A stretch of 64,000 nucleotides of DNA, taken from Sporosarcina sp. P33 (lineage in GTDB: Bacteria > Bacillota > Bacilli > Bacillales_A > Planococcaceae). The stretch covers positions 2,830,501 to 2,894,500 of the forward strand of contig NZ_CP015027.1 in assembly GCF_002077155.1 (NCBI RefSeq), given 5' to 3'. The translations under genes and the position numbers were made by a program. This document shows, piece after piece, positions 1,599-35,382 of the stretch. Position 1 is the stretch's first letter. Every line of letters begins with the position of its first letter. The notes below the pieces were generated by a model that did no database searches, was not told the origin of the DNA, and was given only the letters and a program-made list of their open reading frames with translations.

Positions 1599-1869
1599 CT
1601 GTAAATCCCCCTCCATGTTCATCCTGACGAATACGTATACTATTATATCATAAAACAAATCAATTTTACTTGCAATGACAACATTGTGTCAACGCTTTCT
1701 TTCACGGTGTATATAGGTGACTAGCGTCTGTGTCTTCTGTACAATAAAAGAAAGTTCCAGTATGTAAATACGTATCATGATATATACATTTGTTTCATCA
1801 TGGTTTGCAGCAATAAAAGATAAGGTGCAATCATACGAACTGTATAAAACGAGCGGAAAGGAAGATTAC

Positions 1870-2949
1870 ATGTGGAGAGTGGGCTGGAAGATTCTCATTT
1901 TGCTATTGATCGTCATGGGGATTTTTTATTTTATAACTGATAAGGTGAGTGTAAATGAACCGCTGGAATCACCCGTACAGCATGGTTCGCCTATTGCAGT
2001 GCCTGAAAAGGGCCCCTCAGTGGGCGGTGAAGGTATGCCAAGACCATCGGAAGGGATGTCCGTGTTTGTCGGTCAGAAGGTCGAAAAACTGGAAGAGCAA
2101 TTCGGCAAACCATCCAGAGTGGAGCCATCCAGCTATCAGTACGAATGGTGGGTATACACAGATAAACCAAGTTTTATGGCAGGTGTGCGAAAAGGAAAGG
2201 TCAACCAATTGTATACTGCCGACAGATCAGCGGATGTGTCCCCGTTTACCATCGGGCAGAATGTGCAGGAAATTCATCGTTTTACACCAATTGAATCAGA
2301 GATTGACGTAACAATCAAAGACAATATTTATTCATTTTCATTAAACAGTGATGATATTAAAAACCGTATGCTAATACCCTACGAGAACTTATTCGTACAA
2401 TTATATATTGATCAAGTAGACGGGGTGCTTGGAGGCGTCCGCTTCATCACTCCGAGTACGCTGGTCAAACATCAGCCGTATGATATGACCTATCTTGGCG
2501 AAATGATAGAAGCGCCAAAGCCTTCTTCAACAGTTCAGACGGAGGTAGACCGTGCTATGGAAAGACAGACATTCGAAGTGACTAATCAGGTGCGTGAAAA
2601 ACGTGACTTGCCGGTTTTATCATATGACGAAAAACTGGCTGCACTTTCAAGAAAGCATAGCCAGGAAATGATTTTTCAGAAATACCGGTCGCATGGTGAA
2701 GAAATTATTGAACCGTTTTCAGAACGGTTAAAAGCGGCCGGCATCCCACCTGCGAAGGCTGGAGAAAATACTGCATTTAATTATATCGATTCCATTGAAA
2801 CGGTTCATGGCTGGCTAAATTCACCGAAGCACCGGGAGGTCCTGCTGAATCCCAATTTTACGCATACCGGTGTCGGCGTTTACAATAAATACTACACACA
2901 GTCATTTGTTGCCCGGACGGAAACCGATCAATCGGAAGATGACGACTAA
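1870..2949 (+). CDS. ylbC: Membrane-anchored CAP-domain protein, YlbC-like
   Basis: A 359-residue protein with an N-terminal membrane anchor (residues about 7-25) and an extracytoplasmic body. The body holds a CAP-associated N domain (about 70-210) and a C-terminal CAP/SCP domain (about 230-350) with the family's alpha-beta-alpha features, including WLNSPKHREVLLNP and GVGV. B. subtilis YlbC has the same architecture, similar length and the same chromosomal position. The frame is open back to 1777, but ATG 1870 has a GGAAG ribosome site at suitable distance and puts the membrane anchor at the terminus. CAP-domain proteins in spore formers are extracytoplasmic and of unclear biochemical role. 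The end overlaps the convergent kinase gene by 4 bp. Confidence 0.85.
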   Translation: MWRVGWKILILLLIVMGIFYFITDKVSVNEPLESPVQHGSPIAVPEKGPSVGGEGMPRPSEGMSVFVGQKVEKLEEQFGKPSRVEPSSYQYEWWVYTDKPSFMAGVRKGKVNQLYTADRSADVSPFTIGQNVQEIHRFTPIESEIDVTIKDNIYSFSLNSDDIKNRMLIPYENLFVQLYIDQVDGVLGGVRFITPSTLVKHQPYDMTYLGEMIEAPKPSSTVQTEVDRAMERQTFEVTNQVREKRDLPVLSYDEKLAALSRKHSQEMIFQKYRSHGEEIIEPFSERLKAAGIPPAKAGENTAFNYIDSIETVHGWLNSPKHREVLLNPNFTHTGVGVYNKYYTQSFVARTETDQSEDDD

Positions 2950-3677
2950 GGAAGAATCCATGTGCCTTCCTCGTTCGATGCGATGCCTCTTATATGAAGA
3001 GGCATCGCTGTTTTTTTTGCATATACAGCTGCTTTTTCTTGAATAACAGGACGTTCACACTGAAGTAATGGAAGAAACTCGTCAAATGTCAGCCGGTCGA
3101 AACGTGTATAGTCTGATGTTTTATGGGGATCGGCTGACATGACTCCCGGTACATCCTTAAAAAACTCCACATGACTGGCCTGTAAAGATGAAGCCAGTGC
3201 AATCGCTGTTAAATCGCTGCCGCCTCTGCCGAGTGTCATAAACTGACCTTGCGTATTCATTCCCTGAAAGCCGGGAACGATAATGCATGAATGCGTCTGC
3301 AATGTATTGACAATATGTGTACTGTTGATTTTTTCGATGGTGGCATTACAAAATGCGCCCTTTGTTCGAATGCCTGTATTTTGTCCATAGATAATTGTGT
3401 TGTCTATGCCTTCAGTAGTTAATTCTGCGGATAATACAGCAGAAGCAATCAGTTCTCCGCATGCAGCTGCCAAATCTCTGGCTTCGCCGGATTTAGAGAA
3501 AGAGTTGGTGAGTGTCAGCAGCTGATCCGTTGAATAGGGATCGCCGCCTCTCCCCATTGCAGAGACGACGACGATTACGGCGCGGTACTTCGACAGTGCA
3601 CGGCGGATATGTTGAATGCACTTTGCCCGCTGCTGTTCATTCTGCATCGCAATCCCGCCGAACTTCTGGATAATCAT
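2946..3677 (-). CDS. DapG-like aspartokinase catalytic domain without ACT domains
   Basis: A 243-residue amino-acid-kinase-fold protein that resembles the catalytic half of B. subtilis aspartokinase I (DapG). KFGG is at residues 5-8, VVVSAMGRGGDPYSTD at about 36-51, CGE at 73-75, GRGGSD at 150-155 and PGVMSADP at about 177-184. Aspartokinase phosphorylates aspartate as the first step to diaminopimelate and lysine. DapG is about 400 residues; this protein stops where the linker to the two regulatory ACT domains would begin, so it should lack allosteric feedback. KFGG is followed by IA instead of the usual TS, so activity is not assured. No strong ribosome site precedes the ATG at 3677. It is divergent from a MurE-type ligase, and the shared promoter region has sporulation-type boxes. 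A role in supplying DAP for spore cortex is inferred. Confidence 0.75.
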   Translation of the reverse strand: MIIQKFGGIAMQNEQQRAKCIQHIRRALSKYRAVIVVVSAMGRGGDPYSTDQLLTLTNSFSKSGEARDLAAACGELIASAVLSAELTTEGIDNTIIYGQNTGIRTKGAFCNATIEKINSTHIVNTLQTHSCIIVPGFQGMNTQGQFMTLGRGGSDLTAIALASSLQASHVEFFKDVPGVMSADPHKTSDYTRFDRLTFDEFLPLLQCERPVIQEKAAVYAKKTAMPLHIRGIASNEEGTWILP

Positions 3678-3698
3678 AGTATCCCAACTTTCTTCGTG

Positions 3699-3726
3699 AC
3701 ATTCTCCTTACGCCTTTCATAGAATA
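3699..3726 (+). promoter_or_regulatory. Candidate sigma-K-type promoter of the MurE-like gene
   Basis: AC at 3699-3700, a 17-base spacer, then CATAGAATA at 3718-3726, which matches the mother-cell sigma-K pattern AC-N16/17-CATAnnnTA. Transcription would start near 3733-3735, ahead of the AAGGAG ribosome site at 3774. No sigma-A promoter is evident in the same gap. Confidence 0.55.
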
Positions 3727-3751
3727 CTTTATGCTTCGTTTCATTATATTC
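3725..3751 (-). promoter_or_regulatory. Candidate mother-cell promoter of the aspartokinase-like gene
   Basis: On the minus strand CATAAAGTA (3733-3725) fits the CATAnnnTA -10 element shared by sigma-E and sigma-K. GAATATA (3751-3745) resembles a sigma-E -35 element, but the 11-base spacer is shorter than usual. The -10 box overlaps the plus-strand -10 box by two bases. Confidence 0.4.
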
Positions 3752-3788
3752 TCTGAAGAATAAAATGTTCGGGAAGGAGCGGGTTGCC

Positions 3789-5210
3789 TTGCTTTTATCT
3801 GAGTTACTAAAGGAATGGCCATGCACTGTGCTGCAGGGCTCGATACGGCAGTCAGTCAGCGGCATTACGGAATCCTCTAAAAAAGTGAAGAAAGACTATG
3901 TATTTGTCATAAGGAAGGGATCTGTGCAAGATGGTATGGCATTTATAGATGAAGCTATAGCTAATGGAGCGAAAACACTTGCAGTAGACCGGACGAATGC
4001 AGATCTCTCACTCGTGCCTGATGATATTACCGTGGTGCTTGTACCGGACTGCTCATTATTTATTTCATATGGAAGTGCGAGGTTTTCAGGAAATCCGGCT
4101 GAAGAGTTGACGGTGATTGGTGTTACAGGTACGAACGGCAAAACGACAGTCAGTCATTTTATCGGTCAATTACTGAATGAACTAGGCTGCAAGACGGCAG
4201 TGATTGGGACGACAGGGCTTTATATCAACGGCCAGCTGACAGAAACTATAGCCAATTCTATGACGACCATGCCGGCCGAACAGCTGCATCCCATTCTGCG
4301 CAGATGTGCCGATCAGCATGTGACACATGTTGTGCTGGAAGCATCATCACTCGGTTTATCTTCAAACCGGCTGGCCCATTGTCCGATGGCTGTCGGTATA
4401 TTTTTGAATATCGGGATGGATCATTACGTTGAACACGGCGGCAAGCAGCGTTATATTGAAGCAAAGAAGAAATTGGTTTTGCTGGCTGACCAGCTGGTGA
4501 TCAACGAAGAAGATGAAACTTGTCATTCAATTGGCATGGAACTGGCTGATCCGCCAATTTATTTCAGCAGTCAGCACATTCACGGGATGCCGCAGCCACC
4601 CGGAACCTATCCGGTCCTCGGCAGGCATAATGAAATGAACGCCCGTGCAGCTGTCGGAGCGTTGTTCGCTCTTGGTTATACTTGGCAGGCCGTACGACCC
4701 CATCTGACAAGTCTTCGTTTGCCGACGGGCCGTTTGGAAAAGTATGAAGAAGCGGGTATCGAAGTGTACGTAGACTATGCGCATACACCGGATGCACTGC
4801 AAGCCGTGCTTGAGGCGCTGTCTGCGAGTTCCAAACGTGTAATTACGGTATTTGGCTGCGGCGGAGAAAGGGACCGTGAAAAACGCCCGCAAATGGGTGC
4901 AGTAGCGGCTCATTACAGTTCCTGTGTCATTCTTACTTCTGATAATCCGAGAACAGAAGAACCATCTCAAATTATCTTGGATATCCTTGCCGGCATGACA
5001 GGATTCGCAACGCCAGTAGATATCCTCGTGCATCGGCAGTATGCGATTCAATACGCGATCAGGCAAGCGCAGCCCGGAGATATTGTCCTTATCGCAGGTA
5101 AAGGGCATGAACAGACACAGCAGTCGGGAAATCAAACGATCCGCTTTTGTGATATGGAAGAAGTGAAGAAAGCATTCGCTGCGGAAAATAAAAGGCGCAA
5201 GAAATCTTAA
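3789..5210 (+). CDS. murE: MurE-type UDP-MurNAc-tripeptide ligase with DAP-type DNPR motif
   Basis: A 473-residue Mur ligase that adds the third amino acid to UDP-MurNAc-L-Ala-D-Glu. The ATP loop TGTNGKTT is at about 113-120, the putative carbamylated lysine in YIEAKKK at about 226, DNPRTEEP from 385, and GKGHE at 437-441. The arginine of DNPR is characteristic of meso-diaminopimelate-adding MurE enzymes. The start is taken as TTG 3789 because AAGGAG lies 9 bases upstream and the resulting LLLSELL resembles a usual MurE N-terminus; the frame is open from 3765. The gene is not in the dcw cluster, where murE is missing, and it is divergent from an aspartokinase-like gene behind a sigma-K-like promoter. 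It could be the only MurE or a second, sporulation-specific one. Confidence 0.85.
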   Translation: MLLSELLKEWPCTVLQGSIRQSVSGITESSKKVKKDYVFVIRKGSVQDGMAFIDEAIANGAKTLAVDRTNADLSLVPDDITVVLVPDCSLFISYGSARFSGNPAEELTVIGVTGTNGKTTVSHFIGQLLNELGCKTAVIGTTGLYINGQLTETIANSMTTMPAEQLHPILRRCADQHVTHVVLEASSLGLSSNRLAHCPMAVGIFLNIGMDHYVEHGGKQRYIEAKKKLVLLADQLVINEEDETCHSIGMELADPPIYFSSQHIHGMPQPPGTYPVLGRHNEMNARAAVGALFALGYTWQAVRPHLTSLRLPTGRLEKYEEAGIEVYVDYAHTPDALQAVLEALSASSKRVITVFGCGGERDREKRPQMGAVAAHYSSCVILTSDNPRTEEPSQIILDILAGMTGFATPVDILVHRQYAIQYAIRQAQPGDIVLIAGKGHEQTQQSGNQTIRFCDMEEVKKAFAAENKRRKKS

Positions 5211-5269
5211 TGAATAGTCGGGGAACCGGTTTTTTGGTATGATGGGGTAGATAGGAGGTGCGGCAAACT

Positions 5270-5713
5270 ATGATGATGACAGACGAGTGGATGAGAGTCA
5301 TCGATGTGGCGGAAGAACTTTCCGATATGCTGCTGCGTTCTGAAGTGGTGAAAGCCTATCGAGACGCACACAACCGTGTATATTCAAACGCTGATCTGCG
5401 TGAAAAGATCATAAAATTTACCAAAATGAAAGAACAATATGAAGATGTACAGCGTTTTGGACGCTATCATCCGGATTATAGAGTAATTATGAAGGAAATA
5501 CGCCTGCAAAAGCGGGAACTGGACTTGCAGGACGAAGTGGCGGAATTGCGTCTGGCGGAAAATGATGTGCAATCATTGCTGGATGAAATCGGCATCATGA
5601 TCGGACAATCGGTTTCAGATGCAGTCAAAGTGCCTGCCGGTGACGGAACTTTCTCGAACAGTTCTTGCGGAGGCGGCTGCGGCTCCGGCGGCAGTTGTTC
5701 TTGTTCGGCATAA
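5270..5713 (+). CDS. ylbF: YlbF family protein (Y-complex subunit)
   Basis: A 147-residue largely helical protein of the YlbF/YmcA family. In B. subtilis, YlbF, YmcA and YaaT form a complex that binds iron-sulfur clusters and assists RNase Y processing, with effects on sporulation, competence and biofilm formation. The helical body covers residues 5-115. The tail (about 130-147) is rich in Gly, Ser and Cys, including CGGGCG and CSCS, which provides candidate cluster ligands. ATG 5270 is chosen because TAGGAGG ends about 11 bases upstream; a GTG at 5258 would lie within the ribosome site. It is the first of the conserved ylbF-ylbG-rsmD-coaD block. Confidence 0.88.
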   Translation: MMMTDEWMRVIDVAEELSDMLLRSEVVKAYRDAHNRVYSNADLREKIIKFTKMKEQYEDVQRFGRYHPDYRVIMKEIRLQKRELDLQDEVAELRLAENDVQSLLDEIGIMIGQSVSDAVKVPAGDGTFSNSSCGGGCGSGGSCSCSA

Positions 5714-21713: not shown

Positions 21714-21757
21714 GTGGAGGAAAGTGGGGGGATGTGGTACATTATTTCATACAGTGG
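21714..21757 (+). promoter_or_regulatory. MraZ operator: 10-bp-phased GTGG boxes upstream of mraZ
   Basis: GTGG occurs at 21714, 21724, 21734 and 21754, exactly in 10-bp phase (the 21744 position is empty). The last box is part of the mraZ ribosome site GGGGTGA. MraZ proteins bind phased G-rich direct repeats in front of their own operon, so this is read as autoregulation of the dcw cluster. The rest of 21464-21713 holds TTGACA at 21671 without a convincing -10 and no other recognisable feature. Confidence 0.7.
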
Positions 21758-21767
21758 GGTGAATTCT

Positions 21768-22199
21768 ATGTTCATGGGTGAGTATCAGCATTCAATCGAT
21801 ATAAAAGGTCGTCTGATCGTTCCATCGAAGTTTCGGGAACTATTAGCTGACGGCTTTATTTTAACCCGTGGACTGGACAATTGCTTATTCGGTTACCCGC
21901 TGGACGAATGGCAAAAACTTGAAGAAAAGTTGAAAGCGTTGCCGGTCACTAAAAAAGATGCCCGTGCATTCACCCGTTTCTTCTTTTCGGGCGCGAGCGA
22001 AGCAAGTCTCGATAAGCAGGGAAGAGTCAATATCCCGGCAAATTTACGAGAATTTGCGAAGATCGAAAAAGACTGTATGATCATCGGTGTGTCAAGCCGG
22101 ATCGAGATCTGGTCAGCAGAACTTTGGGAAGCATACTACGAAGAATCTGAAGAGTCCTTTAATGACATTGCAGAAAACCTTATTGATTTTGACTTTTGA
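21768..22199 (+). CDS. mraZ: Transcriptional regulator MraZ
   Basis: A 143-residue protein, the B. subtilis length, made of two AbrB-like SpoVT domains (about 5-50 and 75-125). [20 protein letters not shown] and [18 protein letters not shown] carry the paired DxKGR motifs. It represses or tunes the division and cell-wall operon that it heads. An in-frame GTG lies 54 bp upstream, but ATG 21768 follows GGGGTGA and matches the family start. Phased GTGG boxes lie immediately upstream. Confidence 0.95.
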
Positions 22200-22216
22200 A
22201 AGCGGGCGGGATAATC

Positions 22217-23149
22217 ATGTTTAATCACACAACCGTATTACTGCAAGAAGCAGTTGATGGCTTGCATGTAAAACAAAATGGTATTTATGTTGACTGCACG
22301 CTTGGCGGAGCAGGACACAGTGAAGAAATCGTTAAACTTCTCTCACCGGAAGGACAACTTATCTGCTTCGATCAAGACATAACAGCTATTGAAGCAGCTC
22401 AAAAAAAATTAGAGAACTATACAGCACAAGTAAAATTTGTTCATGCGAACTTTAAAGACGTAAAAAATGAATTGGCAAAATTGGGGATTTCTGAAGTGGA
22501 CGGAATTTTATATGACTTGGGGGTTTCTTCTCCGCAGCTTGATACGCCCGAACGAGGGTTCAGTTACCATCACGATGCGCCGCTGGACATGCGTATGGAT
22601 ACTTCTGCGCCGCTGACAGCCTATGAAGTAGTTAATGAATGGTCTTATGCCGATCTGGTCAGAATTTTCTTCCGTTACGGCGAGGAGAAATTTTCAAAAC
22701 AAATTGCCCGTAAAATTGAAGAAGCACGGGGGATTGAGCCAATCCACACAACTGGAGAGCTTGTGGAACTCATTAAAACGGGTATACCTGCAGCAGCCAG
22801 AAGAACGGGCGGCCACCCGGCTAAACGGGTTTTCCAGGCAATACGTATCGCGGTGAATGATGAACTCGGAGCAGCTGAGAAATCTTTGACAGATGCGCTC
22901 ACATTATTGCGCAAAGAAGGCCGAATCAGCGTCATTACATTCCATTCACTTGAAGACCGCTTATGTAAGACTATATTCAAAGAAGCAGCATCTATGCCGG
23001 AGCTGCCGCCAAATTTGCCTGTCATACCTGAAGGAATGGAGCCGGAATTCCAGCTTATTACACGAAAGCCGATCATACCTTCAGATGAAGAAATAGAACT
23101 GAACAAACGCGCAAGATCAGCGAAATTACGAATTATAGAGAAAAAATAG
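22217..23149 (+). CDS. rsmH: 16S rRNA (cytosine-1402 N4) methyltransferase
   Basis: A 310-residue SAM-dependent enzyme (MraW/RsmH) that N4-methylates C1402 of 16S rRNA. The N-terminus [16 protein letters not shown], the SAM motif [14 protein letters not shown] (about 26-39), [15 protein letters not shown] (about 102-116) and the C-terminal [11 protein letters not shown] are all typical. ATG 22217 follows a GCGGGCGGGA purine run. Second gene of the dcw cluster. Confidence 0.96.
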
Positions 23150-23165
23150 AAAAGGGGAATAGAGC

Positions 23166-23537
23166 ATGGGACTAGAACAACGGAACCTGAATATGCCACA
23201 GACACCGGAGACAGAACAACAAACTGAAATTAATCAGCCCCAGGTTGTCCGCCGAGTAAAAAAACGTTTTTCTAAAGGTGAAAAAATATTGTTCACTTTA
23301 TTTGCAGCATTTACAATTGGATCTACTTCTATGCTTTTACAGACGCATTCAGATATAAACGCTGTGAATAAAGAAGTGCAATTGATGAATTTGGAAATAG
23401 AAGATGCGGTAAAACAAAATACTGAATTGTCCATCCAAGTGAGTGATAAATCCACATATGAACGCATTTGGAAAAAAGCACAAGAGAGTGGTCTGAACCT
23501 TAACGAAAGTAACGTAAAGGTCGTACCGGGACGATGA
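23166..23537 (+). CDS. ftsL: Cell division protein FtsL
   Basis: A 123-residue bitopic membrane protein. It has a cytoplasmic basic N-terminus, a transmembrane segment at about 40-58 (KILFTLFAAFTIGSTSMLL) and an extracytoplasmic coiled coil at about 65-95. FtsL, DivIC and DivIB act together to activate septal peptidoglycan synthesis. Assignment rests on topology and on position between rsmH and pbpB, because the family diverges quickly. The stop overlaps the pbpB start by 4 bp. Confidence 0.9.
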   Translation: MGLEQRNLNMPQTPETEQQTEINQPQVVRRVKKRFSKGEKILFTLFAAFTIGSTSMLLQTHSDINAVNKEVQLMNLEIEDAVKQNTELSIQVSDKSTYERIWKKAQESGLNLNESNVKVVPGR

Positions 23538-25759
23538 AGCAGTTTCGCTTTCAATGGGGAGCCTTTCTAATGTTTGTAGTATTCGGAGGGCTCTTTTTCA
23601 TATTATTCGGCAGAATCTTGTTTATTCAGATGACCGGTCAGGTGGATGGCAGAGAACTTGCGAAAATAGCCGCTAACCAGTATGAAAAACATGCAGTTCT
23701 TCAGGCGAACCGCGGTGCTATAGTGGATCGAAATGATGAACCCATTGCATCGGATACGTTGAGCTATCATGTAGTTGCGGTGCTAAATGAAGCAGCAAGC
23801 AAAAACAGCAAAAAAAAGTATCACGTAATTGACTATAAGGAAACGGCCAAAGTACTGGCCAAATATTTGCCGCTAACCGAACGTGAAATATATGACAAAA
23901 TGAAAAATGCCAGGGAAGGCACATGGCAAATTGAATTTGGTCGTGCAGGCAAGGACCTTAACCGGGAAACGGTGCTGAAGATGAAGGAAGAACTCGATAG
24001 AAAAGGCTTATCGGGTATTTTGTTTGTAGAGGGGAAAAAGCGCTTCTATCCTAACGGCCGCTTTGCCTCCTACTTAGTAGGCTTTGCACAAAAAGAGGAA
24101 ACGGCAGACAGAAACACCGTTACTACAGGAAAAATGGGACTGGAGAAGACGTATAACAAGCAATTGACCGGAGTGGACGGCAAAGTGAACTATCAGGCTG
24201 ACGGCTGGGGATATTTACTGCCGACTGCCAGTAAACAAATAGAAGAACCAAAGGATGGTCAGACGATCAAGCTGACACTGGATAAGACGATCAGTAATTT
24301 CGTTGAGGAAGCAATGGATAAGGTGGAGAAAGAGTACTCGCCGAAAAAAATGCTGGTACTCGTAACGAATCCGAAAACCGGTGAAATCCTGGCAATGAGT
24401 CAGCGGCCTACATTCAATCCAATGACGAGAGAAGGTTTGACGGAAAACTGGTTGAACGATGCGGTGGAACAGACAATTGAGCCAGGTTCGCCGATGAAGA
24501 TGTTCACGTTGGCCACGGCGGTCGAAGAGGGCAAGTGGGCACCGGATGACTATTTCAAATCGGGCTCTTATCAAATTTATGATCGGATCATCCGGGATGT
24601 CAACGTGGACGGCTGGGGAACAATTACTTTCCTTGAAGGGCTGCAGCGTTCATCTAACGTCGGCATGGCCTACCTGCTGGAGAGAATCGGAGATCAGAAA
24701 TTTATCGAATACATTCATAAATTTGGCTTTGGCAAACGCACCGGTATTGATTTGCCGAACGAAGCTTCCGGTGTCGTGCTTGATAACTATCCGGCTGAAC
24801 GATTGACGACTTCCTATGGACAAGGGTCTACGGTCACTCCTTTGCAAATGATTCAGGCAGCTTCCGCTATCGCGAATGACGGTGTCATGATGAAACCGTA
24901 TGTGATTGATCAAATCATTGATCCGAATACCGAAGAAGTTCTCGAGAATCATGAGCCGGAAGAAAGCGGCAAACCAATTTCAGCAGAAACTGCTAAACAG
25001 GTGCGCGAAATTCTTGCATCTACCGTTACTTCAGAAAACGGAACGGCGCAAAAATATCATTTGGAGAATTATGCAGTAGGCGGTAAAACAGGAACAGCCG
25101 AAATTCCGAAAAAAGAAGGAAAAGGCTATATGTCCGGATACGGAAACTATCTGTATTCCTTCCTTGGCATGGCGCCCATCGACGATCCGCAGCTTTTGAT
25201 TTATGTCACCGTGCAGCAACCCAAACTAAAGGGCGGGGAGCTTGGTTCAGATCCGGTTTCAAAAGTATTCAACCCTATTATGGAAAACAGTCTAAAATAC
25301 TTGAATATCGCCCCGGATGACGAGCAAGTAATTCCTGTGAAAAAAGTAGGGGATTATGAAGGCGAAGAAGCAGAGAAGGCTGCGGAACTGGCAGCTGAAG
25401 ACGGTTTCCAAACGGTATTGATAGGGGAGGGCGGCAAAGTATCGAAACAAATACCTAAAGCCAAGACCAAATTGACGGAGGATTCCATCATCCTTCTGAA
25501 GACAGAAGGGGACACGACATTCCCGGATATGACGGGATGGTCCAAAAAAATGGTGCTGTCATTTACGAATCTGTCTAAGCTGGACATTCGGATAAATGGT
25601 GAAGGGTATGTTGTCGGTCAGAGCGTTACAGAGGGTACTTCTGTGAATAAGGAAGACCCTGTCGTAGTCGAGCTGCGGACCCCGGAACAACAGTTTAATA
25701 AAAAGAAGAATAAAGAGAATAAAGAAGAGGGCGAAGAGGAACAAATCATGGGCGGCTAA
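23534..25759 (+). CDS. pbpB: Penicillin-binding protein 2B (septal transpeptidase)
   Basis: A 741-residue class B PBP. It has an N-terminal anchor (about 10-32), a dimerisation domain, and a transpeptidase domain with SPMK at 319-322 (catalytic serine 319), SSN at about 373-375 and KTGTAE from 518. Two C-terminal PASTA domains occupy about 595-725. It ends in a Lys/Glu-rich tail. This is the essential septal crosslinking enzyme paired with the FtsW-type polymerase. ATGA overlap with ftsL. Confidence 0.95.
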   Translation: MKQFRFQWGAFLMFVVFGGLFFILFGRILFIQMTGQVDGRELAKIAANQYEKHAVLQANRGAIVDRNDEPIASDTLSYHVVAVLNEAASKNSKKKYHVIDYKETAKVLAKYLPLTEREIYDKMKNAREGTWQIEFGRAGKDLNRETVLKMKEELDRKGLSGILFVEGKKRFYPNGRFASYLVGFAQKEETADRNTVTTGKMGLEKTYNKQLTGVDGKVNYQADGWGYLLPTASKQIEEPKDGQTIKLTLDKTISNFVEEAMDKVEKEYSPKKMLVLVTNPKTGEILAMSQRPTFNPMTREGLTENWLNDAVEQTIEPGSPMKMFTLATAVEEGKWAPDDYFKSGSYQIYDRIIRDVNVDGWGTITFLEGLQRSSNVGMAYLLERIGDQKFIEYIHKFGFGKRTGIDLPNEASGVVLDNYPAERLTTSYGQGSTVTPLQMIQAASAIANDGVMMKPYVIDQIIDPNTEEVLENHEPEESGKPISAETAKQVREILASTVTSENGTAQKYHLENYAVGGKTGTAEIPKKEGKGYMSGYGNYLYSFLGMAPIDDPQLLIYVTVQQPKLKGGELGSDPVSKVFNPIMENSLKYLNIAPDDEQVIPVKKVGDYEGEEAEKAAELAAEDGFQTVLIGEGGKVSKQIPKAKTKLTEDSIILLKTEGDTTFPDMTGWSKKMVLSFTNLSKLDIRINGEGYVVGQSVTEGTSVNKEDPVVVELRTPEQQFNKKKNKENKEEGEEEQIMGG

Positions 25760-25765
25760 TGTATA

Positions 25766-27727
25766 GTGCGCAAATTCACGGCATACCTTAATAGAAAAAA
25801 AGGTAGTGAATCATTGCGGTCATTTATCGATATGCAGTCAAAAAAGCGTTTACGTGCAGCGTTTGTCTTGTTCCTCATCTGTTTACTTCTCGTGATCGGC
25901 AAACTATTTCATGTGCAGATAATTAAACACGAGTGGCTGAAAGAAAAAGCCGAAGAAAACTGGGACCGTGAAATCCCTTTCGGCGCCATGCGCGGGAATA
26001 TTACAGATCGTAATGGGCAGCTGATTGTCGGCAATGAGCTGGCTCCTACGCTATATTTTATGCCCGCCCAAAATCCTGATATTTCAGATGACATCCCTGC
26101 GATTGCAAAAATCCTGCGGACAGAACCTGCTGTATTGGAAGAAAAACTGAAGAAAAAAGATTATATGGTGAAACTGGCTCCTGAAGGAAAAAACATCACG
26201 AAAGAGCAGGCGGATGAAATTACCAAACTGCAAATTGCCGGATTGTATGTAGGAGTAGATTTTGTCCGCCATTACCCATATAATGACCTGTTGGCTCGTT
26301 TAATTGGATTTACCGGCTATGACGGCAAGGGTCTTGCTGGCATTGAATATGCTTATGACGAGATTCTGAATGGGACAGGGGACAAAGTGCGTCTGTTCAC
26401 TGATGCGAAGGGCATTGCCTTGCCGCATGTTGAAGACAGTTTTGAACACGGAAAAGAAGGATCACCTCTCGAGCTGACGATTGATTTGAAAATGCAGCAA
26501 ATTGTAGAACGTGAGCTCATTCAGGCAATGGAGAAGTATGATGCGACACAGGCGCTGGCAATTATTATGAATCCGAAGACAGGGGAGTTACTGTCGCTGG
26601 CATCTGTACCCGGCTTTGACCCGAAAGACTACCAATCGGCTGATTCCACTATCTATAACCGGAACTTACCGGTTTGGATGACATACGAGCCGGGCTCGAC
26701 ATTTAAAATTGTCACATTGGCGGCAAGTCTCGAAGAAAATGTCATTGACCTGGAAAATGAAGGCTTCTATGATCCCGGTTATACGATGGTAGCGAATGCC
26801 CGATTGAGATGCTGGAAACGGGAAGGGCATAAAGATCAGACGTTTCTTGAAGTCGTAGAGAATTCTTGTAACCCTGGCTTCATTACGATGGGTCAGCGTC
26901 TTGGCAGCGAAAGGTTGGACCGCTACATTCGGTCATTTGGCTTTGGTGTTTCAACAGAATCCGGCATTGCCGGCGAAGCAAAAGGCATTCTGTTCTCAAA
27001 AGAAGCTTTCGGTCCGGTTGAGCAGGCAACGACTGCATTCGGCCAGGGGATATCAGTGACACCAATCCAGCAAGTGCAGGCGGTAGCTGCCGCGATTAAT
27101 GGCGGGAAACTCTTTAAACCGTATATCGTCAAATCAATCAGGGATTCAGAAGGCAAGACGATTCAAGAATTTGAACCGGAATTGAAAAGACAAGTAATCA
27201 GTGAAGAGACATCAGCAAAAGTTCGTCATGCGCTTGAATCGGTAGTTGCAAATGGTTCAGGCCGCAATGCATTTGCAGATGGACTTCGTATCGGAGGGAA
27301 AACTGGAACAGCGCAAAAAGTAGTGGATGGCCGTTACAGTGATGGCGACTACATTGTTTCGTTCATTGGTTTTGCTCCCGCAGATGATCCTGAATTACTG
27401 GTATATGTAGCCGTAGACAGCCCGAAGAACTCGATTCAATTCGGGGGTGTCATAGCTGCCCCGATTGTGGGACGGATAATTGAGGAAGTAGCACCAGTGG
27501 CCCATATCGAGAGAAGGAAAGAACAGCTGGAGAAAGAGTATCGGTGGGGAGATGCCATCACATTCCGCTCGCCAGACTTACTCGGAATGACAGAAAAGGA
27601 ACTGCTGTCCCAAAATTACACGTTCAAAATCAAATGGCACGGCAAAGGCAAGAAGGTAGTGCGTCAGTTGCCGGCGCCCCATACATTGATGACCGTGGAA
27701 GATACCATTCATCTGTATACAGAATAA
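25766..27727 (+). CDS. spoVD: SpoVD-like penicillin-binding protein with one PASTA domain
   Basis: A 653-residue class B PBP with a membrane anchor at about 30-50, STFK at 312-315 with catalytic serine 312 in EPGSTFK, SCN in place of SxN at about 370, and KTGTAQ from 512. One PASTA domain closes the protein (about 595-650), as in B. subtilis SpoVD (646 residues), which is needed for spore cortex. It starts with GTG 25766, six bases after pbpB. In B. subtilis murE follows, but here the next gene is mraY. Confidence 0.93.
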   Translation: MRKFTAYLNRKKGSESLRSFIDMQSKKRLRAAFVLFLICLLLVIGKLFHVQIIKHEWLKEKAEENWDREIPFGAMRGNITDRNGQLIVGNELAPTLYFMPAQNPDISDDIPAIAKILRTEPAVLEEKLKKKDYMVKLAPEGKNITKEQADEITKLQIAGLYVGVDFVRHYPYNDLLARLIGFTGYDGKGLAGIEYAYDEILNGTGDKVRLFTDAKGIALPHVEDSFEHGKEGSPLELTIDLKMQQIVERELIQAMEKYDATQALAIIMNPKTGELLSLASVPGFDPKDYQSADSTIYNRNLPVWMTYEPGSTFKIVTLAASLEENVIDLENEGFYDPGYTMVANARLRCWKREGHKDQTFLEVVENSCNPGFITMGQRLGSERLDRYIRSFGFGVSTESGIAGEAKGILFSKEAFGPVEQATTAFGQGISVTPIQQVQAVAAAINGGKLFKPYIVKSIRDSEGKTIQEFEPELKRQVISEETSAKVRHALESVVANGSGRNAFADGLRIGGKTGTAQKVVDGRYSDGDYIVSFIGFAPADDPELLVYVAVDSPKNSIQFGGVIAAPIVGRIIEEVAPVAHIERRKEQLEKEYRWGDAITFRSPDLLGMTEKELLSQNYTFKIKWHGKGKKVVRQLPAPHTLMTVEDTIHLYTE

Positions 27728-27773
27728 GCAGTGCCTTATTGACACGCAATAGATAGTAGAAGGAGAACTTAAT

Positions 27774-28745
27774 ATGACACTCGGCACCACAGTCACGATA
27801 ATCGCTGCAGCATTTTTTGTCTCAGCGATTGTCGGGGTGATCATCATCCCATTACTTAGAAGGTTGAAATTTGGTCAAAGCATACGGGAAGAGGGTCCGC
27901 AAGCGCATATGAAAAAAGCGGGCACGCCTACTATGGGCGGGCTCATCTTCCTTATTTCCATATTGATTTCAACACTTACCTTATCTTACATAAACGACAC
28001 ATTGACTACTCATACGATCGTGTTATTGATTGTGCTGATTGGTTTCGGATGTATCGGCTTCCTGGATGACTTTATCATCATCGTAGCGAAACGCAACTTA
28101 GGATTAACATCACTTCAGAAATTAATCGGACAGATTATCATAGCGATCATCGCCTTTTTCTTACTGAAACTGGGACCATTCGAAACAACTGTAACGATCC
28201 CTTTCACGGATCTCGGGATAGACCTTGGCGTATTTTATGTGGCTTTTTTAGTCTTTTGGCTTGTAGGATTTTCCAACGCAGTCAACTTGACAGATGGCCT
28301 GGATGGTCTGGTTGGAGGAACTTCAACCATCGCATTCTCGGCATTCGGCGTCTTTGCATTAGCGTATGAGCAAAATGATATTGCACTATTCGCTTTTGTA
28401 GTGGCGGGTGCCATGCTCGGGTTTTTATTATTCAATATTAAGCCTGCAAAAGTATTCATGGGCGACACCGGCTCGCTTGCGCTTGGTGGTGCGCTCGCCA
28501 TGCTGTCCGTGCTGATCAAGCAGGAGTTGCTGCTGCTGATTATCGGGATTGTCTTTGTGGTAGAGACGCTTTCTGTAATTATTCAAGTCATTAGTTTCAA
28601 AATGACTGGAAAACGTGTCTTTAAAATGAGTCCCATTCATCACCATTTTGAACTATCGGGCTGGTCTGAATGGAAAGTAGTGATTGTGTTCTGGGGAGTA
28701 GCACTGCTTGCTGCCCTTGTACCGGTCTTTTTGGAGGTCATGTAA
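27774..28745 (+). CDS. mraY: Phospho-MurNAc-pentapeptide transferase MraY
   Basis: A 323-residue polytopic membrane enzyme that makes lipid I on undecaprenyl phosphate. It has about ten membrane segments and the signatures KKAGTPTMGGLIF (about 44-56), FLDDFIII near 100, NAVNLTDGLDGLVGG (about 167-181) with the catalytic aspartates, and MSPIHHHFELSGW near the C-terminus. AAGGAGA precedes ATG 27774. The 46-bp gap after spoVD is where murE stands in B. subtilis. Confidence 0.96.
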   Translation: MTLGTTVTIIAAAFFVSAIVGVIIIPLLRRLKFGQSIREEGPQAHMKKAGTPTMGGLIFLISILISTLTLSYINDTLTTHTIVLLIVLIGFGCIGFLDDFIIIVAKRNLGLTSLQKLIGQIIIAIIAFFLLKLGPFETTVTIPFTDLGIDLGVFYVAFLVFWLVGFSNAVNLTDGLDGLVGGTSTIAFSAFGVFALAYEQNDIALFAFVVAGAMLGFLLFNIKPAKVFMGDTGSLALGGALAMLSVLIKQELLLLIIGIVFVVETLSVIIQVISFKMTGKRVFKMSPIHHHFELSGWSEWKVVIVFWGVALLAALVPVFLEVM

Positions 28746-30095
28746 ATGAAGAATGCAGAACAATTCGCAGGGAAACGAGTACTTGTGGTCGGCCTGGCAA
28801 AGAGCGGGGTGGCGGCAGCAGGTTTGCTTCATCGGCTCGGAGCAGAAGTTGTCGTCAATGATTCTAAACCGGCAGAAGGCAACGAAGAAGCTATGGAGCT
28901 CCAGGCGCAGGGAATAGAAGTGATCGGAGGCGGCCATCCGGCAGATTTACTGGAGCGAAATTTTGACTTGATCGTAAAAAATCCGGGGATCCCGTATACT
29001 AATCCGCTGATCGCGAAAGCGTTGGAACAGCGTCTTGCCATTTGGACAGAAGTGGAGTTGGCAGGTCTGCTGAGTGAAGCGCCGATTATTGCCATAACGG
29101 GCTCTAATGGAAAAACGACTACAACCACATTGCTTTATCATATGCTCAATATGGCGAAGAAAAAGCCGCTGATTGCCGGTAATATCGGAACAGTTTCATG
29201 CACCGTGGCGGAAAAAGCCAAACCCGATGAAGTGATGGTTCTGGAAGCCTCCTCGTTTCAATTAGCAGGGACGGAACGGTTTACTCCCAGAATTGCAGTG
29301 TTTTTGAATTTATACGAAGCACACTTGGATTATCATGGTTCACTGGAAGAATATTTACATGCAAAATTGCAGGTGGCGCGCAATCAAACGTCACAAGAGT
29401 ACTTGATTTATAATGCAGATCAAAAGCTTATCAGTGAGGCAGTCGGGTTATTCGAATCCCGTAAAGTTCCGTTCTCTGTTCAAGGGAAAAATGCGGAAGG
29501 GATTTCAGCCGATGATGAATGGATTTACTGGTTAGGCGAACCGTTCATTGAAATCAGGAAAATCAAATTGCCAGGACGCCATAATTTGGAAAACATTGTA
29601 GCGGCAACTGCCGCGGCCATCTTATCTGGCTGTGAAAAAACGGCAATTGAAAATGTTTTAAATTCATTTACAGGCGTACGCCACCGTATGCAATTCGTGC
29701 GCGAAGTAAAAGGCCGCACCATATATAATGATTCCAAAGCGACTAATACTCTGGCAACGAAAAGTGCATTGTCATCATTTAAGACTCCGATCGTATTGAT
29801 AGCTGGAGGACTTGACCGGAATCATTCATTTGAAGAGCTGCGGCCGTTCATGCAAAATGTCCGCGCTGTTGTGGCGATAGGGGAGACCGCTGATCGTTTT
29901 GCGGAGTTTGCGGTGTCATGCGGTGTGACTGATACCGCGCGTGCTTCGACTATGCAGGAAGCAGTTGAAAAGGCATATAGATTCAGCAGTGAGGACGATG
30001 TCATTTTATTATCGCCAAGCTGCGCCAGCTGGGATCAGTATCCAAGTTTTGAAATCCGCGGAGATCAATTTATTGATGCAGTAATGAAATTATAA
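28746..30095 (+). CDS. murD: UDP-MurNAc-L-alanine:D-glutamate ligase
   Basis: A 449-residue cytosolic Mur ligase that adds D-Glu to UDP-MurNAc-L-Ala. VLVVGLAKSGVAAAGLL is at about 12-28, the ATP loop AITGSNGKTTTTTLLYHML at about 115-133, NLYEAHLDYHGSLEEY at about 193-208, and the C-terminal LSPSCASWDQYPSFEIRGD is diagnostic. It follows mraY with no gap; GGAGGT lies in the mraY 3' end. Confidence 0.96.
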   Translation: MKNAEQFAGKRVLVVGLAKSGVAAAGLLHRLGAEVVVNDSKPAEGNEEAMELQAQGIEVIGGGHPADLLERNFDLIVKNPGIPYTNPLIAKALEQRLAIWTEVELAGLLSEAPIIAITGSNGKTTTTTLLYHMLNMAKKKPLIAGNIGTVSCTVAEKAKPDEVMVLEASSFQLAGTERFTPRIAVFLNLYEAHLDYHGSLEEYLHAKLQVARNQTSQEYLIYNADQKLISEAVGLFESRKVPFSVQGKNAEGISADDEWIYWLGEPFIEIRKIKLPGRHNLENIVAATAAAILSGCEKTAIENVLNSFTGVRHRMQFVREVKGRTIYNDSKATNTLATKSALSSFKTPIVLIAGGLDRNHSFEELRPFMQNVRAVVAIGETADRFAEFAVSCGVTDTARASTMQEAVEKAYRFSSEDDVILLSPSCASWDQYPSFEIRGDQFIDAVMKL

Positions 30096-30152
30096 CTTCG
30101 CTGCAACAGCGGGAAAGTAAAATGAACAGACAGCTGATTAATTTGAGAAAGG

Positions 30153-31241
30153 ATGCGAACGCTGGAAAGAACCTACCGTATAGTCTTTTTGACAGCCGCT
30201 TTACTTTTGTCGCTGATCGGGTTGGTATTTGTGCAATCGGCAGGATCGTATTGGGGGGAAGTGCATTACCAGGATTCCTCCCCCTTCATCGTCAAGCAAG
30301 GCATTTACATGATTATTTCATTAAGTGTCGCTTACGTGCTGGTGAAGAGTCCATTAACTTCACATCCGAAGTTTTGGACGTATTGCTACATCGCTTCCAT
30401 TGTGATGCTCGTGGCAGTTTTGATTCCTGGCATCGGGGCGGTGCGTAACGGTTCCCAAAGCTGGATCACACTCGGTCCGGTCAGTTTGCAGCCCGCCGAG
30501 TTTGTAAAAGTCGCGTTACTTGGGAAATTGGCAAGCAGTATGAAGAAACACAAAGGAAAGTCATGGCAATGGCAGCATTTTGCACTCATCTTGCTGCCGG
30601 CAGCGTTGATTATGATGCAGCCTGACCTGGGATCAGCCGTCATCATGATTGTATCTGCTTTTGTCATCCTGTTTCTGGCAGGTTATCCGCTGTCATTCTT
30701 TATATTTCTTATCGTATCCGGAGTTGCTGCTTTTATCGGGCTCATCTTGGCTGCACCGTATCGCCTGGATCGGATCAAGTCCTATATTGACCCGTGGAAT
30801 GACCCGCTCGGTACGGGTTTTCAAAGTATCCAGTCGTTGTTTGCCATTGCCCCCGGAGGATTATTCGGACATGGCTTCGGCAACAGCCGGCAAAAGTTCC
30901 TGTACTTGCCCGAACCGCAAAACGATTTTATATTTTCCATCATTGCAGAAGAAATCGGATTTATAGGTGCGGCATCCATCGTCGTGCTGTTCATTCTGTT
31001 ATTTGCTTCGGCATTTGGTATCGCGATTCGTCTCGGTAACTGGAACTCATTTTTAATAGTCACCGGTATGGTGTCCATGATTACTTTTCAAACATTTTTA
31101 AATATGGGAGTCGTATCAGGTTTGCTGCCTGTAACAGGAGTGACGCTGCCTTTTATCAGTTACGGGGGATCTTCGCTGTTAACCACGTGGCTGGCTGTCG
31201 GAACAATCCTGCACTACTCTGCGAATAAAAGGGCAGGATGA
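30153..31241 (+). CDS. spoVE: SEDS-family peptidoglycan polymerase (SpoVE/FtsW type)
   Basis: A 362-residue SEDS glycosyltransferase with about ten membrane helices. Conserved elements include SLQPAEFVKVALLGKLAS (about 111-128), QPDLGSAVIMI (about 151-161), the extracellular segment with DPLGTGFQSIQSLFAIAPGG and PEPQNDFIFSIIAEEIGF, and the C-terminal LPFISYGGSSLL. The position between murD and divIB fits B. subtilis SpoVE, but whether it acts in vegetative division (FtsW role), sporulation or both cannot be told. In B. subtilis murG and murB follow; both are missing here. Confidence 0.9.
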   Translation: MRTLERTYRIVFLTAALLLSLIGLVFVQSAGSYWGEVHYQDSSPFIVKQGIYMIISLSVAYVLVKSPLTSHPKFWTYCYIASIVMLVAVLIPGIGAVRNGSQSWITLGPVSLQPAEFVKVALLGKLASSMKKHKGKSWQWQHFALILLPAALIMMQPDLGSAVIMIVSAFVILFLAGYPLSFFIFLIVSGVAAFIGLILAAPYRLDRIKSYIDPWNDPLGTGFQSIQSLFAIAPGGLFGHGFGNSRQKFLYLPEPQNDFIFSIIAEEIGFIGAASIVVLFILLFASAFGIAIRLGNWNSFLIVTGMVSMITFQTFLNMGVVSGLLPVTGVTLPFISYGGSSLLTTWLAVGTILHYSANKRAG

Positions 31242-31255
31242 AGGGAGAACAGGAT

Positions 31256-32140
31256 ATGGATAAAATAATTGATATTGAAGACCGAATTCCCTCGATGCGT
31301 AAAAAGCGAAGAAGAAGAGCTAATATCAGCTTCCTGATTCTAGTCGTGATATTCGTTCTTGTTCTTCTGGCCTTGCTGTATTTCCAATCCTCATTAAGCG
31401 ATGTGTCGGATATATCAATTAATGAGACTATTTTACATGACAGTGAGGAATATATAGATCAGAGCGGATTATATAAAGGACAGTCGCTATGGGGATTCCG
31501 CACAAAAGACATTGAAAATAACATAATGAAAATCCCTGGCGTGAAGGAAGTGAGCGTCAAAAGGGATTTTTATCATGATGTGTCGATAACCGTAACGGAA
31601 TGGGAGCCGGTTGCTTATATAGAAAATAAGACGCGATATGACCTGCTCCTGGAGAATGGGGAGCGCATCGAAACTGGTGATCCAGAAATCCTTTCACATG
31701 CCCCAATTCTGTCTGGGTTTACCGATGCGGATGTAACAGAACGGATGATTGACCAGCTTCAGAAGATGGACAGTTCCGTTTTCGAGCTGCTGTCAGAACT
31801 TCATTTTGCAGGACAGGAAAAAATAGATGTTTTTATGAACGATGGATATGAAGTGCACGCTGTTATTTCAGGCTTTGCGGAAAAAATGTCTTATTATCCG
31901 GATATTATCGCACAATTGCCGAAAGATGAAAAAGGTGTGCTGGATATCGAGATTGGCGTGTATTTTAAAAAATACTCGGATTATTATAAAGAGCCCGAGC
32001 CTGTAAAAGTCGAAATTCCTCAGATTGACGAAAAGACCGATGAAAAGACAGACGAAAAAACTGATGAAGAACAGGCGCCGCCTGTCGAAATGGAACGGAA
32101 AGAGGAGGGAGAAAGTGGGCAAGGGACTGAAGAAAACTAG
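31256..32140 (+). CDS. divIB: Cell division protein DivIB (FtsQ)
   Basis: A 294-residue bitopic division protein with cytoplasmic IDIEDRIPSMRKKRRR, a transmembrane helix at about 25-43, a POTRA domain (about 50-118, including GVKEVSVKRDF) and a FtsQ/DivIB beta domain. The tail carries four tandem DEKT-like units at residues 258-273, encoded by 12-bp repeats at 32027-32074. ATG 31256 is preferred because GGGAGA lies about 10 bases upstream and the family starts this way; an earlier in-frame ATG overlaps the spoVE stop. Confidence 0.9.
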   Translation: MDKIIDIEDRIPSMRKKRRRRANISFLILVVIFVLVLLALLYFQSSLSDVSDISINETILHDSEEYIDQSGLYKGQSLWGFRTKDIENNIMKIPGVKEVSVKRDFYHDVSITVTEWEPVAYIENKTRYDLLLENGERIETGDPEILSHAPILSGFTDADVTERMIDQLQKMDSSVFELLSELHFAGQEKIDVFMNDGYEVHAVISGFAEKMSYYPDIIAQLPKDEKGVLDIEIGVYFKKYSDYYKEPEPVKVEIPQIDEKTDEKTDEKTDEEQAPPVEMERKEEGESGQGTEEN

Positions 32141-32840
32141 GGAAAAACGAGGCAAGCAGTTAGTGTTCTCTGTCGTCTTTCTAGTACTGGGCTTCATGCT
32201 TGCATTTTCTTACCGGACAATCGGCAGTAAGCAACAAGTGCTGGATCCTGAACAATCCAGTATATTTCTTCAGGAAGAACGATATCGTGAAGATTTAATT
32301 GAGCAGCAGGAACGCAATAAAGAATTGACCGGCGAATTACTTGAAAAACAAAAACGGGTACATGATTTCGAACAGGAGTTTTCCGACAAAGAAAAAAAAC
32401 ATGCGGTTCTTGTAGAAAAAGCACGTGATTTACGATTATTGCTGGGCTTTGTTCCTTCAGAGGGAGAAGGCGTCAAAGTGACACTTGAAGATGCGGATTA
32501 TGACCCATCGGTTCAAAATCCAAATGATTATATCGTTCATGAGAGTCATGTCTTGCGCGTCATTAATGAATTGAAAATCGCAGGTGCACAAGGAATGACC
32601 ATCAACGGGCAGCGGATTAATTCGAATTCGTACATAAAATGTACAGGCCCTGTTATTATGATTGATGGCAGAACCTTTCCGGCACCTTTTATTATAGAAG
32701 CAGTTGGGGATCCGAAAGTGCTGTCACCGGCACTGCATCTGAAAGGCAGTGTCATTGACGGATTGCAAAGGGATAACATTGTCGTCACAGTAGAGGAAAT
32801 GAAGGAAATTCAACTGCCTGCGATTCGTGACGAAGTATGA
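32115..32840 (+). CDS. ylxW: DUF881 family protein YlxW
   Basis: A 241-residue membrane-anchored protein: transmembrane segment at about 14-33, coiled coil at about 50-105 (rich in E, K and Q), then a DUF881 domain with LLGFVPSEGEGVKVTLEDAD and GAQGMTINGQRI. It overlaps the divIB end by 26 bp; GTG 32115 follows GGAGGGAG. B. subtilis ylxW is at this position and similar in length. Function is unknown, presumed envelope-related from context. Confidence 0.85.
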   Translation: MGKGLKKTREKRGKQLVFSVVFLVLGFMLAFSYRTIGSKQQVLDPEQSSIFLQEERYREDLIEQQERNKELTGELLEKQKRVHDFEQEFSDKEKKHAVLVEKARDLRLLLGFVPSEGEGVKVTLEDADYDPSVQNPNDYIVHESHVLRVINELKIAGAQGMTINGQRINSNSYIKCTGPVIMIDGRTFPAPFIIEAVGDPKVLSPALHLKGSVIDGLQRDNIVVTVEEMKEIQLPAIRDEV

Positions 32841-32859
32841 TGGATTGTGGGGGGGTAGA

Positions 32860-33576
32860 GTGAAACGGAACACACACTGGAAGTTCACTTTGATTCTCGG
32901 TATAGTAGGGTTTGTATTAGCGTTACAATATAATTCTATGAATACCACATCAACACGTGATACACGAGATTTGTGGGCGATCCGTAAAGAATTGTCCAAT
33001 GAAAAGAAAATTCACTCTGAACTGTTGGAAGAAATCAGGGAAATAGATCAAACACTTGCATCCTATACTGCATCGCCTGAGGCAAACGCAGCTGAAGTGC
33101 TGCAAAACACACTGGACAAGCTGTATAAACAAGCTGGATTCATGCCAATTACCGGACCGGGATTTGTAATCGAAGTAGCCCCGTCCCCAGAGTCTATTGC
33201 GTTCGGTTATGACATAGAACCTGTTTCATCTGAATTGCTGGCCTGGTTTATTAATGTGATCAATCAGCACCAAGGGAACGAGCTGGAAATTGACGGCAAA
33301 CGTTTCACTACACTGAGTTGGATCCGGGACGTCAACGGCAATCTGACTGTCAGCGGAGAAATCGTTTCCACACCGCCGTTTAACATAAAAGTCGTTTCTC
33401 CAACGATGGAAGACAGTGAAAAGCTGTATAATTTATTATTGACAACTACAATCCAGGATGAATTCTATCTAGATGACTTAGTTTTGTCAATTAGTGAACC
33501 AACGGACCGTATTACGTTAGAGGGCTGGACCGGCGGTTTTGAAAACCAATTTTTAAAAGAACAAACAAAGGAGTAA
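32860..33576 (+). CDS. ylxX: DUF881 family protein YlxX
   Basis: A 238-residue paralogue of the preceding gene, with a membrane anchor at about 8-24, coiled coil at about 38-65, and a DUF881 domain with FMPITGPGFVIEVAPS and NELEIDGKRFTTLSWIRD. GTG 32860 is preferred because a G-rich ribosome site precedes it by about five bases; the frame is open from 32827. Tandem DUF881 genes between divIB and sbp are usual in Bacillus. Confidence 0.83.
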   Translation: MKRNTHWKFTLILGIVGFVLALQYNSMNTTSTRDTRDLWAIRKELSNEKKIHSELLEEIREIDQTLASYTASPEANAAEVLQNTLDKLYKQAGFMPITGPGFVIEVAPSPESIAFGYDIEPVSSELLAWFINVINQHQGNELEIDGKRFTTLSWIRDVNGNLTVSGEIVSTPPFNIKVVSPTMEDSEKLYNLLLTTTIQDEFYLDDLVLSISEPTDRITLEGWTGGFENQFLKEQTKE

Positions 33577-33583
33577 TGACAAT

Positions 33584-35336: not shown

Positions 35337-35382
35337 AGTCTTGACAGATGGAAATTGCAGATAATTAAGAGGAGGAAAATCA

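Follow-up and report, generated by a model that had tools for sequence, protein, structure and literature searches.

How could one bacterial cell make two peptidoglycan chemistries, one for its vegetative wall and another for the cortex of its spore? The question is raised by two divergent genes of Sporosarcina sp. P33 (assembly GCF_002077155.1), which lie in a stretch of 64,000 nucleotides (positions 2,830,501 to 2,894,500 of contig NZ_CP015027.1; here called the window, whose numbering we use) of a 3,235,441-base genome contained in one contig. A sequence-only reading of the window had placed at 2946..5210 a divergent module made of a DapG-like aspartokinase without ACT domains and a MurE ligase that has the DNPR motif and lies outside the dcw cluster, and had proposed that the pair acts as a switch for cortex precursors. 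Both open reading frames (ORFs) are found there, divergent and separated by 111 bp. From comparisons among related genomes, we consider it probable that the MurE (3789-5210) is a sporulation-specific cortex ligase for meso-diaminopimelate (DAP) in a bacterium with a lysine (Lys) wall and that the adjoining kinase is a remnant of DapG freed from feedback. In Bacillus (Lysinibacillus) sphaericus, which is Lys walled, a DAP ligase activity appears at sporulation, as classical biochemistry established.

The MurE ORF occupies 3765..5210 on the forward strand; a TTG at 3789, behind GGGAAGGAG, is more likely to be the start than the ATG at 3765. The predicted protein has the Pfam Mur ligase middle and C-terminal domains and scores above the cut-offs of NF001126 (403.2 versus 373 bits) and TIGR01085 (395.6 versus 257.3 bits). 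The DNPR codons were located at 4941-4952 (forward strand). According to one report (PMC3829189), the Asn and Arg of this motif bind the free carboxylate of DAP in the MurE proteins of Escherichia coli and Mycobacterium tuberculosis. When the motif column was read over 138 MurE ORFs, enzymes of the locus type had DNPR in most genera and always kept the Arg; the variants were DSPR in one genome of genus g10, DNAR in g13 and g18, and DNCR and DNSR in g19. Mean identity of the locus MurE to 25 other MurEs of Bacilli was ~33%, and in a tree the DAP type stood apart from those 25 and grouped with paralogues on long branches (DHPG, support 0.55; DDLN). Because of that grouping, we draw no conclusion as to transfer or fast evolution.

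The distribution of the ligase follows that of the sporulation gene spoIVA. We searched 151 genomes of the family (Planococcaceae; 19 genera) with a profile built from 21 locus-type MurEs, and we scored a genome as SpoIVA positive when TIGR02836 matched at an E value of 1e-60 or lower (113 of the 151). Matches of at least 573 bits were obtained in 113 genomes, and the next matches listed reached no more than 414 bits. The DAP-type MurE was thus present in 112 of the 113 SpoIVA-positive genomes and in 1 of the 38 SpoIVA-negative ones. The SpoIVA-positive exception, G020, gave no match at 1e-100; its slot is occupied by a DNPR MurE of divergent sequence, next to a short kinase that is likewise divergent. 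The only genome with the DAP-type MurE and no SpoIVA call (G099, genus g10) is a draft of ~160 contigs, so that the gene may have fallen into a gap or sporulation may have been lost recently. As to the vegetative wall, S. highlanderae is described as having type A4alpha, L-Lys-L-Ala-D-Asp (PMC10628120), and its strain F6_3S_P_2 (L064) carries the kinase/MurE pair.

A Lys-type wall would call on a different MurE. A search of the P33 genome for the Mur ligase middle domain returned six loci, which by recognition are the locus MurE, another MurE (L001), MurF (L002), the MurD of the dcw cluster (L003), MurC (L005), and FolC (L006). The sequence-only reading had suggested looking for a second MurE without DNPR, and L001 is such an enzyme: it has 509 aa and DDPR in place of DNPR. 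Neither MurE belongs to the dcw cluster, which lies in the window at 21714..36552 (forward strand; mraZ, mraW, two genes for penicillin-binding proteins [PBPs], mraY, murD, ftsW, divIB ... ftsZ, named by recognition from the ORF list); no murE was found there between the second PBP gene and mraY, and MurD is the only one of the six Mur-domain loci in it. Since there is a single MurF, a change from Lys to DAP would have to act at MurE, and MurF would have to take both tripeptides. Of the MurEs of the first type, 26 were retrieved, representing 17 of the 19 genera and among them genera without SpoIVA; all 26 had DDPR. The putative Lys role of L001 is deduced from this motif and from the Lys-type wall that S. 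highlanderae has.

Other MurEs were seen in the family as well. At the threshold of the profile search, no DDPR MurE was found in genera g2 and g4, which carry a different, divergent MurE instead (L186-L189 and L192-L195); the one that was read, L192, has ATNGK and DDHFANSG and might, as a guess, add ornithine. In several genera there are MurE paralogues with DDLN, DDRN, or DKLE (L166, L168-L178, L185, L190, and L191) or with DHPG (L167 and L179-L184) in place of DNPR.

Upstream of the locus murE, conserved box counts point to a SigK-like promoter (3697..3726, forward strand) composed of TGAC (3697-3700), a spacer of 17 nt, and CATAGAATA (3718-3726). Positions 3699-3726 fit the pattern AC-N16/17-CATANNNTA, which we take to be the SigK consensus. 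We compared 66 promoter loci of DAP-type MurEs, 49 with the kinase and 17 without it (L120, a duplicate of L150, was dropped). A match to CATANNNTA was present upstream of MurE in 58 of the 66, with matches in each of the 13 genera: 41 of 49 where the kinase is present (shuffle mean, 3.1) and 17 of 17 where it is not (1.4). Upstream of the DDPR MurEs the count was 1 of 26 (shuffle mean, 1.6). The longer pattern TG[AT]C-N17-CATA preceded MurE in 47 of the 49 kinase-bearing loci, with 0.43 expected from shuffles. Nothing beyond base composition is preserved in these shuffles, and genomes so closely akin do not count as independent observations; the genus counts are the fairer measure. Six Sporosarcina loci and L154, in which the conserved box ends in TG, were counted as misses, as was L046, which lacks the box. 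We attribute the box to murE because in genera without the kinase it lies just before the murE ribosome-binding site. A SigE promoter was also considered, as the murE box GTGACATT presumably resembles SigE -35 boxes too, and was set aside as the less likely: SigK is the better fit to the form of CATANNNTA, with three free bases and a fixed TA, and to the C that is conserved in TG[AT]C. According to one source (PMC517825), a SigK promoter has a five-base -35 element and a ten-base -10 element 14 to 16 nt apart. The region between kinase and murE is conserved and shared across six genera. For the kinase, CATAAAGTA (3725..3733, reverse strand), which overlaps the murE -10 element, is a weak candidate for a -10 element; on that strand of the window, no AC box was found at the proper distance from the CATANNNTA-type box.

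The kinase gene (2946..3677, reverse strand) encodes a protein of 243 aa. PF00696 is the only Pfam family that it matches above the cut-off, with no ACT match, and its best NCBIfam model is NF006068 (DapG), to which it aligns over residues 1 to 245 of 405, in keeping with the ACT-less, DapG-like kinase first proposed. Its score lies below the cut-off of that model (234.6 versus 474 bits). The AlphaFold model (mean predicted local distance difference test score, 91) has aspartokinase 5yei as its best PDB match (template modeling score, 0.86 by query length). Among homologues with at least 41% identity, 57 of 57 had open frames of 237 to 318 aa, which argues that the loss of the ACT domains is no local frameshift. 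A 288-aa frame in G028 (L330) was tried as a further short kinase and rejected as a frameshifted full-length LysC-like gene; this frame change, like one in the kinase of G039 (L019), could be a sequencing error.

Where the short kinase came from may be read from its relatives and from the gene order of the dipicolinate operon. We inferred a FastTree phylogeny of the catalytic domain from 21 of the 49 short kinases, 30 DapG proteins, 17 of 30 LysC-like loci, and 1 AKIII, excluding L083 (masked stretch) and L203 (incomplete N terminus). The short kinases formed one clade (support, 1.0) that joined DapG (0.87). Consistent with the tree, an insert of the GRxGDPYxTD type was found in 21 of 21 short kinases and 29 of 30 DapG proteins and in none of the 17 LysC-like enzymes of the family. 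DapG is the aspartokinase that is inhibited by DAP. Among other Bacilli, 73 genomes matched DapG; in the best 30 of these, all 30 loci have dapG flanked by asd and dapA, and dpaB is also visible in 24. The dpa loci of the family were read in 15 genomes from 13 genera, and in all 15 dpaB, asd, and dapA are consecutive, with a gap of ~10 to 40 nt between asd and dapA, and neither a short-kinase match nor a full DapG match lies in between. The NF006068 cut-off was exceeded in 72 of 101 genomes of a class-wide sample; none of the eight family genomes listed there had a match to the DapG model. A full-length DapG elsewhere in the family was considered and rejected, as 0 of 61 genomes of an order-level sample, all from this family, exceeded the DapG cut-off. 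The only other aspartokinase found in the P33 genome is of the AKIII type. To judge from these comparisons, dapG appears to have left the dipicolinate operon and shed its ACT domains to become the short kinase, which would then be its direct descendant. In loci L206-L225, the best dpaA match per genome was 40 to 88 bits against a cut-off of 319.65, so that the dpaA model misses the dpaA of this family.

These gene orders also bear on what the kinase is for. Aspartyl phosphate is common to the pathways for dipicolinic acid and DAP, and the gene missing from the family's dpaA-dpaB-asd-dapG-dapA operon is the very one that other Bacilli keep there; the kinase might therefore replace the operon's dapG and serve dipicolinic acid rather than cortex DAP, with its position beside murE reflecting only a common late timing in the mother cell. 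We regard this as possible, at somewhat less than an even chance. It is countered by the constant position of the kinase, which lies beside the ligase in every one of the 57 genomes. One use does not shut out the other, and with a pathway common to DAP and dipicolinate, the kinase may serve both.

The constancy of the pair can be stated precisely. Among the matches listed, short kinases with at least 41% identity were found in 57 of the 151 genomes, all SpoIVA positive, and in every sampled member of g1 (17 genomes), g3 (8), g4 (16), g5 (3), g11 (9), and g17 (4); these counts cover the matches listed, and much more divergent short kinases would be missed. In all 57, a distance of 87 to 182 bp separated the kinase match from that of the DAP-type MurE. 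Genes that were neighbours by chance and functionally unrelated would hardly remain so close, nor share a conserved intergenic region across six genera, and we consider such an explanation highly improbable, even though in 12 of the 25 genome loci that were examined the ligase occupies its slot with no kinase beside it.

That slot is itself conserved. In the window, it is bounded on the left by a CAP-domain protein (1777..2949, forward strand; PF14504/PF00188), presumably the one named YlbC, and on the right by a YlbF-like protein (5258..5713, forward strand; PF06133), both recognized also by synteny. The DAP-type MurE lies between YugN/YlbC-like and YlbF-like genes with the order kept in 25 of the 25 genome loci; in L156, a YlbC-like gene was not detected beside it, and in L149 and L155, an extra 1 to 3.5 kb of DNA separates it from YlbF. 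In 13 of the 25, the space between YlbC and MurE holds the kinase, in divergent orientation. All 35 named loci of the family (L042-L075 and L083) carry the kinase and at least part of MurE, which is partial in L063, where a contig end truncates the locus. By kinase identity (82 to 90%), the nearest named relatives are S. ureae DSM 2281 and Sporosarcina strains P2, P34, P32b, and P13. The record titled Arthrobacter beigongshangensis (L049) has the Sporosarcina gene order and is probably a mislabelled strain. The YlbF-like protein has a Cys/Gly-rich C-terminal tail, GGGCGSGGSCSCSA. Farther downstream of the ylb genes, an ORF at 14499-15335 resembles, by recognition, an IS3-type transposase.

Observations on the ligases, the promoter region, and the kinase weigh against the reading of the locus as a cortex-specific DAP ligase with a feedback-free kinase. 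The first concern the division of labor between the two MurEs. DDPR retains the Arg as well. L001 (1138-2667 of that locus) falls below the cut-off of the Lys ligase model NF010628 (387.5 versus 536 bits) and passes the DAP ligase model NF001126, at 532 bits. The MurE of Thermotoga maritima, which has DDPR, uses Lys in vivo yet can add DAP in vitro, according to its description (PMC9434261); the motif alone is thus no proof of Lys specificity. Both P33 enzymes could accordingly add DAP, the second being a redundant copy with no role in sporulation, as their shared passing of NF001126 would allow. The near-perfect co-occurrence of the locus MurE with SpoIVA, the SigK-like box before one MurE type only, and the Lys wall reported for S. 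highlanderae all argue to the contrary, and we judge a redundant copy very unlikely.

A second set of observations concerns the promoter region. A SigK-like promoter would make the ligase late. In B. subtilis, those SigE-controlled genes that are known to be required for the cortex are repressed by SpoIIID (PMC517825), a timing that would not match. In genus g3, the three matches to CATANNNTA are to another box, and the conserved TGWC-N17 box there ends in TG. On the kinase strand, CATANNNTA was matched in 27 of the 49 kinase loci (3.0 expected) and also in 8 of the 17 loci without a kinase (1.4 expected), which means that the kinase-strand matches are not specific to the kinase.

The remaining observations concern the kinase, whose residues we counted in 49 short kinases and 16 full-length enzymes (L092, which lies outside the family, was not counted). 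The Thr of TDV, present in 15 of 16 full-length enzymes, is replaced by Lys (KDV) in 49 of 49 short kinases. The Lys or Arg of the GAK position (15 of 16 full-length enzymes) never occurs in the short ones, which have Pro (41), Glu (5), or Ser, Ala, or Gly (1 each). The His that follows it in 16 of 16 full-length enzymes is Gln in 48 of 49, and Ser10, after KFGG, is Ala in 48 of 49. We take several of these positions to be at the nucleotide site, and the identity of the catalytic residues is likewise our assumption; if so, the changes could alter or abolish the use of ATP. In G039 (L019), moreover, the frame of the kinase is altered over the last ~20 residues. The kinase was not detected in 12 of the 25 genome loci (six genera with SpoIVA), with the ligase at the same locus, and 55 of the 113 SpoIVA-positive genomes showed no short kinase among the matches listed; the kinase is therefore not required for such a cortex.

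With the ligase as we propose, the kinase could have ceased to be an aspartokinase: its domain, altered or inactive, could bind some other substrate or have a regulatory effect on the ligase or on a different aspartokinase, and the substitutions in TDV, at the GAK position, and after KFGG, like the six SpoIVA genera that do without the kinase, would suit such a domain. Other residues are kept: the Lys of KFGG in 48 of 49 short kinases (one gap); Ser39, Thr50, and Glu75 in 49 of 49 each; and Arg151 and Asp155 in 48 of 49 each (one masked). The aspartokinase fold is confidently predicted, and the kinase is under purifying selection, with a ratio of nonsynonymous to synonymous substitution rates (dN/dS) of ~0.04 to 0.05 in four comparisons (L042, L044, L045, and L075); against L047, dS was saturated. 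We consider an altered or inactive domain unlikely. Substrate binding looks intact, nucleotide use may be altered, and we lean toward the view that the short kinases are active aspartokinases.

We hypothesize that the P33 cell builds its vegetative wall with the other MurE (DDPR, Lys type) and that late in sporulation the SigK-like promoter would drive transcription of the locus MurE in the mother cell. Acting as a UDP-MurNAc-L-Ala-D-Glu:meso-DAP ligase, this enzyme would put DAP in the place of Lys in the spore cortex precursor, the switch lying at MurE and at no other step. The kinase, in roughly half of the spore formers, would be made together with the ligase from the common intergenic region and, lacking ACT domains, would supply aspartyl phosphate without feedback from DAP or lysine and hence more DAP (and dipicolinate). 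The existence of genera without the kinase suggests that of the two it is the ligase that is essential, the kinase being an addition to it. Substrate, enzyme activity, absence of feedback, timing, and descent from dapG are what we infer in this scheme. A bolder version, to which we give an even chance, is that the family deleted dapG from the dipicolinate operon and remade the gene into an ACT-less kinase that shares one divergent, late mother-cell promoter region with the cortex MurE, the kinase being lost later in the lineages of six spore-forming genera. If this is true, a two-gene switch lifts the feedback on DAP supply and, within a single cell, gives one compartment a peptidoglycan stem with a different third residue. 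Of the switch as originally put forward, the link to sporulation is supported, through the tracking of SpoIVA (112 of 113) and the mother-cell type of promoter; the pair is not universal, and the altered nucleotide-site residues weaken the part assigned to the kinase. Conservation of the pair extends to 57 genomes of the family, is seen also in the L-Lys-walled S. highlanderae, and stops short of the six SpoIVA genera that have no kinase.

If our reading is correct, it names a gene for the developmental wall switch known from classical biochemistry and accounts for the ability of a single cell to produce peptidoglycan of two chemistries. A MurE with DNPR, DNAR, DNCR, or DNSR in the ylbC-ylbF slot would serve as a sequence marker for the spore formers of the family. 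NF001126 labels both P33 MurEs "2,6-diaminopimelate ligase" (532 and 403 bits), which hides the presumed Lys/DAP split in automatic annotation; predictions of wall type from genomes would be misled because automatic models call both enzymes DAP ligases. Provided that it is active, the ACT-less derivative of DapG would be a good natural candidate when an aspartokinase free of feedback is sought.

The closest known counterpart is the sporulation DAP ligase of B. sphaericus, which likewise adds DAP in a Lys-walled organism and is, to our knowledge, described as an activity and not as a gene, with no adjacent kinase reported for it. In a literature search that barely covered the older subscription papers, we found no gene assignment, no such pair, and no ACT-less derivative of DapG, so that, as far as that search reaches, these three points are new and the ligase activity is not. 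The short aspartokinase-like proteins of TIGR02078 (AspKin_pair), which presumably also lack ACT, likewise have an aspartokinase-like catalytic domain; the window kinase scores far below the cut-off of that model (75.5 versus 242.4 bits). With DapG (NF006068), the short kinase shares the catalytic domain, the GRxGDPYxTD-type insert, and its position in the tree; unlike DapG, it has no ACT domains, occupies another locus, has altered residues at the nucleotide site, and scores below the family cut-off. The locus MurE, for its part, has the Mur domains, the DNPR motif, and the above-cut-off scores of the DAP-type MurEs of E. coli and B. subtilis (NF001126 and TIGR01085); unlike those enzymes, it is a second copy, set in the ylbC-ylbF slot outside the dcw cluster and preceded by a SigK-like promoter.

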